Shown here one piece after another: positions 1 to 5,656 of a stretch of DNA of 38,852 nt. The DNA is from Flavobacteriales bacterium (GTDB taxonomy: Bacteria > Bacteroidota > Bacteroidia > Flavobacteriales_D > Parvicellaceae): NCBI GenBank assembly GCA_029244805.1, contig JAQWQH010000091.1, forward strand, positions 1 through 38,852, in the 5' to 3' direction. The notes beneath the pieces are model-generated. The model searched no databases, was not told the origin of the DNA, and was given only the letters and a program-made list of their open reading frames with translations. Every line of letters begins with the position of its first letter. Within the stretch, counting starts at the first letter, position 1. A program made the translations under genes and the position numbers.

Positions 1-53
1 CACAATTATGGTCGGCAAGAAGAAAAACGAAGAATTCATTTAAATTTCACTAA
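1..53 (+). CDS. Possible 3' tail of an upstream gene (truncated by window edge)
   Basis: Reading from base 3, an open frame gives 16 residues rich in Arg and Lys and stops at TAA 51-53, four bases before the next gene's ATG. That spacing would fit a gene co-transcribed with the SDR gene. The other two frames are also open for most of this stretch (frame 2 stops at 41-43; frame 1 runs straight into the SDR gene), so the assignment is weak. The fragment is too short to identify. Confidence 0.2.
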   Translation, partial: QLWSARRKTKNSFKFH

Positions 54-57
54 AACA

Positions 58-750
58 ATGAAAAATTATATAGTAATAGGAGGTTCCACAGGAATAGGAG
101 TCGAGCTTGTAAAGCTTCTCGAAGAGGAAGGTTCAAAAGTAATAGCAACCTACAATACCAACTTTATTCCGGACAGAAAAAATGTAAAATATTTAAAATA
201 TGATGTGTTAAATGACGACTTGGAAATTGACGACTTTCCAGAAGAGATTCATGGTTTGGCCTACTGTCCAGGCAGCATAAATTTAAAGCCTTTTCATCGG
301 TTCAGCGAAAAAGATTTTATTGACGATTTCAAATTTCAAGTTTTGGGAGCTACCAACGTAATAAAACAGCTGCTATCCAAGATGAAGAAAAGTGAAAATT
401 CTTCGATTGTCCTTTTTTCTACAATTGCGGTCCAATCGGGTTTTAGTTTTCACTCTCAGGTATCCATGTCGAAGGGAGCCATTGAGGGATTAACTAGATC
501 TTTAGCCGCGGAATTAGCGCCAAAGATAAGGGTTAATTCGATTGCGCCCTCCCTAACAGATACGCCCCTGGCGCTCAAATTGCTAAATACCGCAGAAAAA
601 GTTCAATTCCAATCTGAGAAAAATCCGTTGAAGAAAATTGGAGAGGCAAAAGAAATTGCAGAAGCAGCAGCATTTTTATTAACCCATAAATCCTCTTGGG
701 TAACAGGACAAATTATCCATGTAGATGGTGGGTATTCAACTATAAAGTGA
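58..750 (+). CDS. SDR-family oxidoreductase-like protein lacking the catalytic Tyr
   Basis: A 230-residue short-chain dehydrogenase/reductase fold protein, a normal length for a classical SDR. The N-terminal nucleotide-binding loop GGSTGIG lies at residues 8-14. The active-site Ser is in LFST (Ser121). The end of the fold is normal, with HVDGGYS near the C-terminus. The YxxxK motif is broken: Lys139 is present (SMSKGAIEG), but the Tyr position four residues earlier is Val135. Established SDR chemistry uses that Tyr as the acid/base, so this copy may bind a nucleotide without classical dehydrogenase activity, or use another residue. It starts at ATG 58 after an A/T-rich leader. The flavin reductase fusion starts 26 bases after its stop, so it probably heads a three-gene operon beside the carotenoid locus. 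Substrate unknown. Confidence 0.85.
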   Translation: MKNYIVIGGSTGIGVELVKLLEEEGSKVIATYNTNFIPDRKNVKYLKYDVLNDDLEIDDFPEEIHGLAYCPGSINLKPFHRFSEKDFIDDFKFQVLGATNVIKQLLSKMKKSENSSIVLFSTIAVQSGFSFHSQVSMSKGAIEGLTRSLAAELAPKIRVNSIAPSLTDTPLALKLLNTAEKVQFQSEKNPLKKIGEAKEIAEAAAFLLTHKSSWVTGQIIHVDGGYSTIK

Positions 751-2208: not shown

Positions 2209-2240
2209 TTTGTTTTGATTCGGTCAATTGTTTACCTTTT
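2209..2240 (+). promoter_or_regulatory. Candidate distal promoter of the merR-crt operon
   Basis: TTTG (2209-2212) is followed after 20 bases by TACCTTTT (2233-2240). This is close to the Bacteroidota consensus TTG-N19-21-TAnnTTTG, with one mismatch in the last base. The -7 part coincides with the first of four repeats in this control region. It would give a long leader (about 170 bases) for the MerR gene. Not tested. Confidence 0.35.
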
Positions 2241-2400
2241 GGAATTATCATAATATTCGTTTTGAGGCAAATTGGCGCCTTTTTTACCTTTGATTATCGC
2301 AGATTTTATAATCTTGTCAAATAATAATATGAGCCAAGAAAGTGAAATTTAATCCGTTAAGCCTTGTATATTACCTTTTGTTAAGTATTTTTACCTTTTG
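2232..2400 (+). repeat. Four direct TTACCTTT(T)G repeats: candidate operator array
   Basis: Copies are at 2232-2241 (TTACCTTTTG), 2284-2292 (one T fewer), 2371-2380 and 2391-2400 (both TTACCTTTTG). The last two start exactly 20 bases apart, about two helical turns, so they lie on one face of the DNA, and the second ends 15 bases before the MerR start codon. CarH-type regulators are known to bind arrays of short direct repeats. It is inference that these are the operators. A caution: TACCTTTG is also a perfect -7 promoter element, so at least two copies may be promoter parts rather than operators. Confidence 0.5.
2260..2292 (+). promoter_or_regulatory. Candidate main promoter of the merR-crt operon
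   Basis: TTTTG (2260-2264), a 20-base spacer, and a perfect -7 element TACCTTTG (2285-2292) match the Bacteroidota sigma-A-type promoter. Transcription would start near 2299 and leave a leader of about 115 bases before the regulator's ATG at 2416. That leader contains two further TTACCTTTTG copies, which would suit a repressor that blocks the polymerase or its clearance. Confidence 0.5.
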
Positions 2401-2415
2401 GTTAAACACAAGTAA

Positions 2416-3297
2416 ATGTCACAATATTCAATTAAGGATTTAGAAAAATTATCAGGCATCAAAGCCCATACTATTAGAATATGGGAAAAAAGATATTCTT
2501 TGTTAACGCCACTAAGAACAGATACTAATATTAGGTATTACGGGGATGAAGAGTTGAAAAAACTAATTAATGTGACATCGCTACTTTGTCTTGGACTTAA
2601 AATATCCAAAATTTCTGAAATGTCTAATGATGAAATAAATCAAAAGCTTGGAGAATTAATTAGTGATATTAAATTTACCGATTCAGTTTCAGAAGTCATA
2701 ACTAATCAGTTGATCTCATCGGCAATAAATTATGATGAATATGCATTTGAAAAAGCATTTTCATCAGCTATTCTGAGACATGGACTTGTTGATACTTACA
2801 TTAATATAGTATACCCATTGCTAGAAAAGGTTGGCATGCTTTGGTTAAAATCGGACTTAATGCCCGCTCAAGAACATTTTCTCAGCAACCTGATTCATCA
2901 AAAAATTCAAAGTGCTATAGACAATGTGCCTCCAGCAAATCCATCCGACGAACCTTGGGTGTTGTTTTTGCCCTATGAAGAAGTCCACGATATCGCGCTT
3001 CTATTATCTTCTTTCATTATCAGAGAGCAAGGAAAGCCCGTTATTTATTTGGGGGCACGAGTTCCAGGGGATAGTCTTTTATCGGTTATTGAGTTATATC
3101 CTAAAGCCAATCTATTGTTTTTTCTCGTGAAAGAATTTGAGCCCAAGGCTATTAATGGCTTGGTTAAAAAAATAAACACTAACTATCCAGAATCAAAAGT
3201 GTTTATTAGTGCAAATCCATTTAGTATGCAGAAAATTGAAGGAGGTATTGATTTTGAAAAAATCAATTCTGTTCAGTGTCTGGTAAAAAAAGTTTAA
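2416..3297 (+). CDS. CarH/LitR-type MerR-family regulator with cobalamin-binding domain
   Basis: This 293-residue protein has three parts. Residues 1-75 are a MerR winged helix-turn-helix: YSIKDLEKLSG, then AHTIRIWEKRY, then RYYGDEEL. Residues about 85-170 are the helical cobalamin-cap domain. Residues about 178-293 are a Rossmann-like B12-binding domain. The CarH photoreceptor signature is intact: Trp143, nine residues, then Glu153-His154 (W-x9-EH). The lower-ligand His is at 191 in EVHDIA, where the usual final Gly of the DxHxxG-type motif is Ala. In Thermus and Myxococcus such proteins bind adenosylcobalamin, repress carotenoid genes in the dark and release DNA when light breaks the Co-C bond. 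The same job is likely here: the gene leads the crt operon and lies 45 bases before crtI. Confidence 0.92.
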   Translation: MSQYSIKDLEKLSGIKAHTIRIWEKRYSLLTPLRTDTNIRYYGDEELKKLINVTSLLCLGLKISKISEMSNDEINQKLGELISDIKFTDSVSEVITNQLISSAINYDEYAFEKAFSSAILRHGLVDTYINIVYPLLEKVGMLWLKSDLMPAQEHFLSNLIHQKIQSAIDNVPPANPSDEPWVLFLPYEEVHDIALLLSSFIIREQGKPVIYLGARVPGDSLLSVIELYPKANLLFFLVKEFEPKAINGLVKKINTNYPESKVFISANPFSMQKIEGGIDFEKINSVQCLVKKV

Positions 3298-3306
3298 CAT
3301 ATTTTA

Positions 3307-3334
3307 TTGTTGTATTATTTTTTGTTTAACTTTA
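3307..3334 (+). promoter_or_regulatory. Possible internal promoter before crtI
   Basis: TTG (3307-3309), 17 bases, then TAACTTTA (3327-3334), which is one base off the TAnnTTTG -7 consensus. It lies in the 45-base gap between the MerR gene and crtI and would start transcription a few bases before ATG 3343. It would let crtI-crtB-orf-crtZ be expressed separately from the regulator. Weak evidence. Confidence 0.3.
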
Positions 3335-3342
3335 CATCCGGT

Positions 3343-4836
3343 ATGTTAAACAATAATAAGATTGGTGTAATAGGTTCTGGCGTGTCAGGTCTCTGCTCTG
3401 CTATCGAATTAGCGGACAAGGGAATGGATGTACACGTATTCGAAAAAAACAAGGAGATTGGGGGTCGAGCTCGTAAATTCATCGCTGATGGTTTTACATT
3501 TGACATGGGCCCAAGTTGGTATTGGATGCCAGATGTTTTTGAAAACTTCTTTAAAAGGTTTCAAAAGAATTTATACGACTATGTTGACTTGGTAAAGTTA
3601 AATCCAGGATTTCAAATTATTTACAATAATGAAACGATTCAAATTCCGGAAAAATTTGAAGACCTTGTTCTTTTATTCGAGGAAATAGAAAAAGGAGCCG
3701 GTGATAAGTTGATAGCTTTTATTAAGGAGGCTGAAACAAAATATATTATAAGCATGAAAGATTTGGTGTTCAATCCAAGCCTTTCAATTAAAGAATTTAT
3801 ACGTGCAGATGTCATAAAGGCTGCGTTTAAACTTCAATTGTTCTCTTCTTTTAAAACGCACGTAAACAAATATTTTAAGCATCCTAAATTACTCTCCATA
3901 ATGGAGTTTCCTATTTTGTTTTTAGGTGCGCAGCCCAAAGACACCCCTGCTCTTTACAGTTTGATGAATTATTCTGGATTGAAGCAAGGGACTTTTTATC
4001 CTATGGGTGGTTTTTCAAAGGTAATAGATGCCTTTTATTCTTTGGCAATAGAGAAAGGAGTGACTTTTCATTTGGATACTACTGTAACTAATTTGCATTT
4101 AACAGGAAATAACATAGGGTATATTGAAACTTCTAACGGAAAATTTGACGTGGATAAAGTTCTCTCTTCTGCGGATTACAATCATACCGAACAATCACTT
4201 CTTCCAACAGAAAAAAGAACATACAGCGAAAAGTATTGGAAATCAAGAACATTTGCTCCCTCAAGCCTAATATTTTATTTAGGGATAAATAAAAAAATCC
4301 AAAACCTAGAACATCACAATTTGTTTTTTGACGAAGATATCCAAAAACATGCCGCAGAGATTTATGAAGATCCGAAATGGCCAACCAAGCCACTTTTCTA
4401 TGTTTGTTGCCCTTCAAAGACCGATGAAAGCACAGCTCCGGCTAACATGGAAAATATTTTCATTTTAATGCCAATTGCCACAGACTTGACAGATACAGAA
4501 GAAATACGAGAAAAGTATTTTCAGATTATTCTCAATCGCATTGAAAAATATGTGGGGGAAGATGTTTCTAAGGCAATAGTTTACAAAAGGAGTTATTGTG
4601 TTGCTGATTTCAAATCAGACTATAATGCATACAAAGGAAACGCCTATGGGCTTGCTAATACATTGAAACAAACCGCTTTCCTAAACCCGAAGATTAAAAG
4701 CAAAAAAGTGGAAAATTTGTATTATACAGGTCAATTAACAGTCCCTGGCCCTGGTGTTCCCCCTACTATTATTTCGGGCCAACTAGTAGCTAACCAATTA
4801 ATTAAAGACATTAAAGAACATGAAGCAGTTATTTGA
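3343..4836 (+). CDS. crtI: Phytoene desaturase CrtI
   Basis: A 497-residue FAD-dependent desaturase that turns phytoene into lycopene in stepwise desaturations at the membrane. The N-terminal FAD-binding loop is GSGVSG (residues 11-16), followed by VFEKNKEIGGRA. MGPSWYWMP is the family's substrate-side motif. The C-terminus has YYTGQLTVPGPGVPPTIISG, the classical CrtI end signature. Length is normal. I chose ATG 3343 (MLNNNKIGVIG); an in-frame TTG at 3307 would add 12 hydrophobic residues before the Rossmann strand. crtB begins inside its last 17 bases. The CrtI paralogue at 8496-9998 differs in its C-terminal motif, supporting CrtI here and CrtD there. Confidence 0.95.
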   Translation: MLNNNKIGVIGSGVSGLCSAIELADKGMDVHVFEKNKEIGGRARKFIADGFTFDMGPSWYWMPDVFENFFKRFQKNLYDYVDLVKLNPGFQIIYNNETIQIPEKFEDLVLLFEEIEKGAGDKLIAFIKEAETKYIISMKDLVFNPSLSIKEFIRADVIKAAFKLQLFSSFKTHVNKYFKHPKLLSIMEFPILFLGAQPKDTPALYSLMNYSGLKQGTFYPMGGFSKVIDAFYSLAIEKGVTFHLDTTVTNLHLTGNNIGYIETSNGKFDVDKVLSSADYNHTEQSLLPTEKRTYSEKYWKSRTFAPSSLIFYLGINKKIQNLEHHNLFFDEDIQKHAAEIYEDPKWPTKPLFYVCCPSKTDESTAPANMENIFILMPIATDLTDTEEIREKYFQIILNRIEKYVGEDVSKAIVYKRSYCVADFKSDYNAYKGNAYGLANTLKQTAFLNPKIKSKKVENLYYTGQLTVPGPGVPPTIISGQLVANQLIKDIKEHEAVI

Positions 4837-5656
4837 TCAAATTTCAGTAAAAACTAGTAAACTTGTTACGAATACATACAGTACGAGTTTTTCTTTAGGG
4901 ATTAAATTTTTGGATAAATCAATTCGAACACCCATTTATAATATTTACGGATTCGTTCGTTTTGCGGATGAAATCGTCGATAGTTTTCATGGATATGACA
5001 AAGCAAATTTATTACAAAAATTTCGCCTTGATACTATTGAAGCGATTGATCAAGGTATCAGCCTTAACCCTATTTTAAACTCTTTCCAAGAGACAGTTAA
5101 TCAATATGATATTGAATGGGATTTGATCGAAACATTTTTAGAGAGCATGAAAATGGACTTGAATCCAGAAGTTTCAAACCAAGCTTACTACGAAAAATAT
5201 ATATTGGGCTCCGCTGAAGTTGTAGGGTTAATGTGTCTTCATGTTTTTACAGAAGGAGATAAAGACTTGTATGAAAAGCTAAAGCCTTCGGCTCAAAAGC
5301 TGGGCGCAGCATTTCAAAAAGTAAATTTTTTACGAGATGCTCAAATGGATTTTATAGATTTAGGGAGGACTTATTTTCCAAATGTAGACTTTAACAATTT
5401 TTCTGATTCAGATAAGATCGAAATCGAAAAAGATATTGAAAAAGATTTCAGAGAAGCTTTGTTTGGAATAAAACAATTGCCAGCTTCGTCAAGAGGTGGA
5501 GTATATTTAGCGTACTATTATTATCTAAGACTTTTTAGAAAGATTAAAGGAGTTTCATCTGAGCATATTATAGCTGAAAGAATTCGAATTCCAAACGGTC
5601 AAAAATTTATCTTAATGTTACAATCTTTTGCAAAACATCAAACTAATTTACTATGA
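4820..5656 (+). CDS. crtB: Phytoene synthase CrtB
   Basis: A 278-residue squalene/phytoene synthase-family enzyme that condenses two geranylgeranyl diphosphates into phytoene. The first Asp-rich motif is DEIVD at residues 50-54. The second is NFLRDAQMDFIDLGRTYFP (residues 169-187), with Asp173 and Asp177 as Mg-diphosphate ligands and the GRxYFP tail. Upstream, NTYSTSFSLG is the usual N-terminal pattern. The gene overlaps the end of crtI by 17 bases, and the following gene starts at an ATGA overlap, so translation is probably coupled. The GGPP synthase that would feed it is not in the window. Confidence 0.95.
   Translation: MKQLFDQISVKTSKLVTNTYSTSFSLGIKFLDKSIRTPIYNIYGFVRFADEIVDSFHGYDKANLLQKFRLDTIEAIDQGISLNPILNSFQETVNQYDIEWDLIETFLESMKMDLNPEVSNQAYYEKYILGSAEVVGLMCLHVFTEGDKDLYEKLKPSAQKLGAAFQKVNFLRDAQMDFIDLGRTYFPNVDFNNFSDSDKIEIEKDIEKDFREALFGIKQLPASSRGGVYLAYYYYLRLFRKIKGVSSEHIIAERIRIPNGQKFILMLQSFAKHQTNLL

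Follow-up and report, generated by a model that had tools for sequence, protein, structure and literature searches.

An interrupted palindrome, TGTTTAAY-N14-RTTAAACA, brackets the putative -7 promoter element of a gene encoding a CarH-like MerR regulator (merR) and is proposed here to be the operator (2379-2408) through which this protein would repress its own promoter as well as other light-response promoters, a reading to which a probability of about 0.75 is assigned. The window (i.e., the whole stretch of DNA that was analysed, 38,852 nucleotides) corresponds to the complete contig C215 of a 2.7 Mb genome (272 contigs; 88.4% complete). In this contig merR is followed by crtI and crtB (Table 1), which is the carotenoid linkage expected of CarH/LitR photoreceptors, and is preceded on its 5' side by an SDR gene, a flavin-reductase/DUF2452 gene and a gene for a 122-aa product that has no Pfam match.

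In two other members of the genus (G001 and G003) the merR cluster extends upstream into a photolyase operon, and the counterpart genes in the assembly of the window (G000), namely CIA30, TspO, photolyase and NmrA/DUF2867, are located on contig C142. The SDR gene at the end of C142 (end of L089) resembles the SDR gene of the window (1-750) and is not identical to it, and contig C28 (L182) carries another photolyase/NmrA pair, with tandem palindromes. The second SDR gene and the second photolyase/NmrA pair are perhaps strain variants held in one assembly, or paralogues.

Table 1. Genes, promoter elements, palindromes and repeat copies around merR (positions in the window)
Feature	Position	Strand	Basis and remarks
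merR, CarH-like MerR regulator with B12-binding domain	2416..3297	+	PF13411, PF02607; CarH NF052513 75 bits; structure model
crtI-type phytoene desaturase	3343..4836	+	NF058655 CrtID, above cutoff
crtB-like phytoene/squalene synthase	4820..5656	+	PF00494
Palindrome TGTTAAGT-N14-GTTAAACA, proposed merR autoregulatory operator	2379..2408		14/16 matches; genus-invariant halves (base counts in text); same position in relatives
Perfect palindrome TGTTTAAC-N14-GTTAAACA, proposed crtI operator, spanning the start codon	3323..3352		perfect in G001, G002 and G003 too
Proposed merR -7 element TATTTTTA	2386..2393	+	one mismatch to TAnnTTTG; homology; 8/8 invariant in genus
Proposed merR -33 element TTG	2364..2366	+	19 bases before -7; TTG position in merR promoters
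Candidate crtI -7 element TAACTTTA (TAACTTTG in G003)	3327..3334	+	sequence; inference
TTACCTTTTG, copy 1	2232..2241	+	exact; 6/10 columns invariant in genus, not conserved
TTACCTTTG, copy 2, one T fewer	2284..2292	+	4/10 columns (2284-2293) invariant in genus
TTACCTTTTG, copy 3; its TG opens the palindrome left half	2371..2380	+	9/10 columns invariant in genus
TTACCTTTTG, copy 4; its TTA closes the proposed -7, the rest is palindrome spacer	2391..2400	+	7/10 columns invariant in genus, 4/7 outside -7

The palindrome at merR and among Bacteroidota

Orienting the family loci revealed GTTTAA and TTAAAC around a fixed spacer right before merR. Among the four members of the genus the left half of the palindrome is invariant at 8/8 positions, the right half at 7/8 and the -7 element at 8/8; the CCTTT that adjoins the left half on its outer side is likewise invariant, which counts against the preferred reading. 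The merR site of the window has two mismatches, a level reached or bettered in 5/1000 shuffles of the merR promoter, and the perfect site at crtI was equalled in 0/1000 shuffles of the crtI promoter. A third match in the window (3270-3299) has three mismatches, a threshold at which three matches are expected by chance.

The promoter consensus of Bacteroidota consists of TTG and TAnnTTTG. With respect to the proposed elements of the merR promoter the palindrome starts 12 bases downstream of the TTG and flanks the -7 on both sides, which departs from the classical MerR layout where the palindrome occupies the spacer between the promoter elements. At crtI the ATG (3343) lies inside the palindrome and the candidate -7 occupies 3327-3334, thus the crtI transcript would be nearly leaderless.

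Sites stand out from the reversed control only when the half-site has 8 bases and no more than one mismatch is allowed, which gives 8:0, 12:0, 11:1, and 8:1 (sites:control) in the four genus members. A 7-base half-site with two mismatches was discarded, as it gave no clear excess over the control (80 vs. 66 in G000).

A wider sample comprised 80 named Bacteroidota merR loci (1.39 Mb in all). The best N14 site upstream of merR had at most one mismatch in 17 of these loci and at most two in 25, compared with 0 and 4, respectively, in 400 mononucleotide shuffles of the merR upstream regions; with at most one mismatch, spacers of N10-13 and N16-18 gave no site and N15 gave four. Over the 1.39 Mb there were 82 sites vs. 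2 for the control, three of the 82 being inside ORFs of at least 100 aa, and 55/80 loci had a site between -1.5 and +2 kb of the merR start. When the family and the other loci were taken together, 53/110 had a site (up to two mismatches) within 130 bases upstream of merR. The form found in Dyadobacter loci is TGTTTAAC-TATTTTTG-AAAAAC-ATTAAACA.

The position relative to the promoter was followed in 40 non-identical merR promoters whose site lies no more than 60 bases from the start. In 26 of them TTG occurs at -15 or -14 relative to the palindrome, and TAnnTT[TA][AG] starts at palindrome position 9 in 25 and at position 8 in six; the perfect TAnnTTTG was found at position 9 in 10/40 and at position 5 in 5/40. 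The palindrome over the -7 element is probably a real and widely shared operator.

The co-occurrence of palindrome and regulator was examined in 178 genomes of the order, all at least 95% complete except that of the window (88.4%), in which MerR presence was scored by a search with alignment A1 (E ≤ 1e-25). The 159 MerR-positive genomes hold 552 sites vs. 144 for the control, whereas the 19 MerR-negative genomes show no enrichment (19 vs. 23), a difference with a Mann-Whitney p of 8e-8. Permutation within genera holding both kinds of genome gave p = 2e-4, driven most by genus g32 (mean of 9.7 with MerR and 1.7 without). Tandem palindromes occur in 74/159 genomes with MerR and in 0/19 without it, and in the 82 places tallied the spacing was 34-35 bp in 36 and 42-44 bp in 18. 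In the family, 8/39 genomes had no MerR hit, and two of these, both incomplete assemblies, nonetheless keep several sites (6 vs. 1 control in G032; 5 vs. 0 in G006). Such co-occurrence is not proof of binding, because loss of merR may accompany loss of the light genes themselves.

The regulator and its relation to CarH

The merR product contains an N-terminal MerR winged-helix domain (PF13411, 52 bits; cutoff 21.6) and a B12-binding four-helix domain (PF02607, 30 bits; cutoff 23), and for the Rossmann half of the B12 domain Pfam gave no match at E 0.1. The predicted structure (pLDDT 88) can be superposed on the cobalamin domain of CarH (e.g., 8c31_D, TM 0.82 on the target); the closest structure to the model is CarH of Thermus thermophilus, with the cobalamin domain at about 3 A. 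The NCBIfam equivalog for CarH (NF052513) was not reached (75.3 bits; cutoff 400). In a phmmer alignment W143/E153/H154 and E189/H191 fall at the CarH Wx9EH and E-x-H positions. These five residues are invariant in 19/19 homologues, and in a second alignment (32 sequences) H154 is present in at least 90% and W143, E153, E189, and H191 are invariant. The E-x-H of MerR (E189, H191) we take to be the lower cobalt ligand His motif of CarH. Wx9EH is given as a motif of CarH in PMC8156234.

The protein shares with CarH/LitR of T. thermophilus, Bacillus megaterium, and Cystobacter the MerR domain joined to a four-helix/Rossmann B12 domain, the Wx9EH and lower-ligand His, the linkage to carotenoid genes and, by the present proposal, an operator overlapping the promoter. 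The operators differ: those known for CarH/LitR are arrays of 11-bp direct repeats (nnnnTnnACAn), three or four in tandem, which for CarH of Thermus and Bacillus extend over the -35 or the -10 (excerpts of PMC9304148 and PMC8156234), while here a palindrome brackets the -7 of a Bacteroidota-type promoter. The initial annotation had expected a CarH-like regulator with an array of direct repeats: the gene is CarH-like by its domains and structure model, yet no tandem TnnACA pair at 11 bp was found in the merR or crtI promoters, nor three tandem TnnACA in the merR promoter even with one mismatch allowed in each. The DNA-binding segment reads HTIRIWE in the window MerR instead of the EVLRQWE of CarH and would fit an operator unlike that of CarH. 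In its architecture, and probably in its mode of action, the protein thus resembles CarH, with an operator of another design.

Likeness is also found to two further systems. The class II LitR proteins PmlR2 and PplR1 of Pseudomonas are LitR/CarH-type MerR repressors of light-inducible genes with two half-sites at fixed spacing and a folate gene among the likely targets; they differ in the consensus, TGTACA-N12-TGTACA for PmlR2, and in being controlled by a LOV protein (excerpt of PMC9758184). For the CarA operator of Myxococcus xanthus, inverted repeats over the promoter bound by two dimers were first proposed, as in the present case, and were later read as 11-bp direct repeats overlapping the -35 (excerpt of PMC9304148).

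We infer that a dimer of the CarH-like MerR, or a tetramer by way of two of its DNA-binding domains, would bind both half-sites and, by covering the -7 (2386-2393) and the start region, would keep RNA polymerase out in the dark, and that light acting via adenosylcobalamin would release MerR from the DNA. Since the putative operator is merged with the -7 element, a bound repressor would mask the latter. The merging of operator and promoter had been anticipated by the initial annotation and stands for the palindrome at merR, not for the repeat named in it.

The direct repeats and other possible regulators

The initial annotation had called attention to four direct repeats before the CarH-like gene. 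They are real, with exact copies at 2232, 2371, and 2391 and one at 2284 that is one T short, and from the start of the third copy to that of the fourth there are exactly 20 bases, as described; this mismatch-free pair is unique in the genome. The 237-base region 2179-2415 contains one 8-mer four times and one 10-mer three times, and for non-homopolymer words repetition this frequent arose in 0/1000 dinucleotide shuffles of that region; the test loses much of its force once homopolymers count as words, about 3-4% of 2000 shuffles then reaching the observed repetition. TTACCTTTTG is not enriched genome-wide (36 copies vs. 35 of the reversed control). The repeats had also been said to contain the -7 core, and this applies to the 2284 copy, the only one with the strict TAnnTTTG, the other three having TACCTTTTG, one T too long. 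The proposed -7 of merR, TATTTTTA, sits between the last two copies, its overlap with the fourth being limited to the opening three bases, and the palindrome overlaps these two copies only in part. Between 2210 and 2292 a TTG lies exactly 20 bases before TACCTTT in copies 2232 and 2284, with a step of 52 bases, so that the two resemble the products of a duplicated promoter unit.

That the regulator recognises its own promoter through TTACCTTTTG, read as direct repeats with a 20-base period, is very improbable, even though the copies exceed local chance, CarH proteins elsewhere use direct repeats (excerpt of PMC9304148) and the 2371/2391 pair is recognisable in the other three genus members with one to three changes. 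Exact copies of TTACCTTT(T)G within 200 bases upstream of merR were found in 4/30 family loci, all from the genus of the window, and upstream of merR in 1/80 loci from elsewhere in Bacteroidota; the crtI, photolyase, and SDR promoters of the cluster have none, the spacing is not 11 bp and TnnACA repeats are lacking at merR. In the four-member alignment, where 103/226 columns are invariant over 2190-2415 (see Table 1 for each copy), copies 2232 and 2284 are not conserved, and outside the overlap with the palindrome and the -7 invariance amounts to 7/8 columns for copy 2371 and 4/7 for copy 2391. The repeat was rejected as an operator because it is not conserved in relatives: the search in homologous merR-crt and photolyase promoters that the initial annotation had proposed was carried out, and its operator claim falls on the result. 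To judge from the alignments, the direct repeats are a lineage-specific, species-level oddity whose copies decay within the genus. It is also rather unlikely that the TTACCTTT copies farther upstream serve as spare promoter elements which endow merR with extra unregulated promoters in the species of the window. The 2284 copy belongs to a full TTG-N20-TACCTTTG with a perfect TAnnTTTG (TTG at 2262-2264), 2232 is near one, and both have the TTG 20 bases upstream of TACCTTT; against this, neither copy is conserved in the genus and a perfect match arises in 53/1000 shuffles.

Another possibility, which we regard as unlikely, is that the palindrome is real and is bound by some other co-travelling factor, such as a second CarH-like MerR (merR2, G000:C261) or an unlinked repressor. 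Co-occurrence alone cannot separate candidate regulators, and merR2 has a similar DNA-binding domain and, in the genus, follows a gene that carries tandem sites. Elsewhere in the order, however, most genomes have one MerR-family copy and the sites are still present, and the site occurs at merR itself in many lineages. Binding of the palindrome by the CarH-like MerR is the preferred reading; against it stand the two mismatches of the window merR site, the 25/80 loci with no site (up to one mismatch) near merR, and the binding of direct repeats by characterised CarH proteins (as given in the excerpts of PMC9304148 and PMC8156234).

A candidate light regulon

Pooled over G000, G001, and G003, the units with a palindrome ahead of them are the photolyase operon, merR, crtI, and the genes for a fasciclin, a TonB-plug receptor and a PKD/GEVED secreted protein, as well as the stretch that leads up to the SDR gene. 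To these are added a rhodopsin gene in G001 and G003, GTP cyclohydrolase I in G001 and a DUF2805 gene in G003. All of these sites are intergenic, the crtI site reaching over the start codon. Most of the palindrome-bearing genes are light-related; some sites with one mismatch precede genes that have no evident light link (glycosyltransferase, PIG-L protein, FAD oxidase). Since the same site is found at crtI (perfect) and at other light-response genes, merR would belong, as an autoregulated gene, to a light regulon.

In other lineages an ECF sigma gene with one or two sites occurs behind merR (e.g., L118:10975, L106:11102, L119:11238 and others), and 5/5 of the proteins tested matched. These sites suggest a MerR-to-sigma cascade, without counterpart at this place in the genus of the window.

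Several features of the neighbouring loci were recorded. The fasciclin promoter has two palindromes 44 bp apart, and merR2 (L091:971-1852), 32% identical in the alignment, is located downstream of the fasciclin gene. Tandem palindromes 43 bp apart (L086:13259-13331, L089:9406-9478) lie more than 200 bases before a 76-aa ORF and about 600 before the SDR gene, which points to either a long leader or a small gene missing from the annotation. A gene for a BLUF blue-light sensor adjoins the photolyase operon in G001, the copy on which Pfam was run, and is present, by sequence, at the corresponding place in G003 (BLUF coordinates L086:18291-18707 and L087:5053-5469); none was seen in the corresponding G000 stretch (L089). 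BLUF beside photolyase may be a second light input.

Bacteroidota include many marine rhodopsin-bearing bacteria. For light control in this phylum there is a candidate regulator, yet the literature searched describes no operator and gives no account of this palindrome in that role, although one may still be in print. It is likely that a CarH-like B12 photoreceptor occurs Bacteroidota-wide with an operator code of its own, the -7-bracketing TGTTTAAY-N14-RTTAAACA, single or in tandem (about 34-35 or 42-44 bp), which would join photolyase, carotenoids, rhodopsin, pterin synthesis and ECF sigma in one regulon. The palindrome, its promoter position and the list of targets make this light regulon directly testable. 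In the known structures of the CarH tetramer single domains read direct repeats, and a palindromic operator would need another arrangement of the CarH-type DNA-binding domains; if the proposal is true, both inverted and direct repeats are recognised by the CarH fold.
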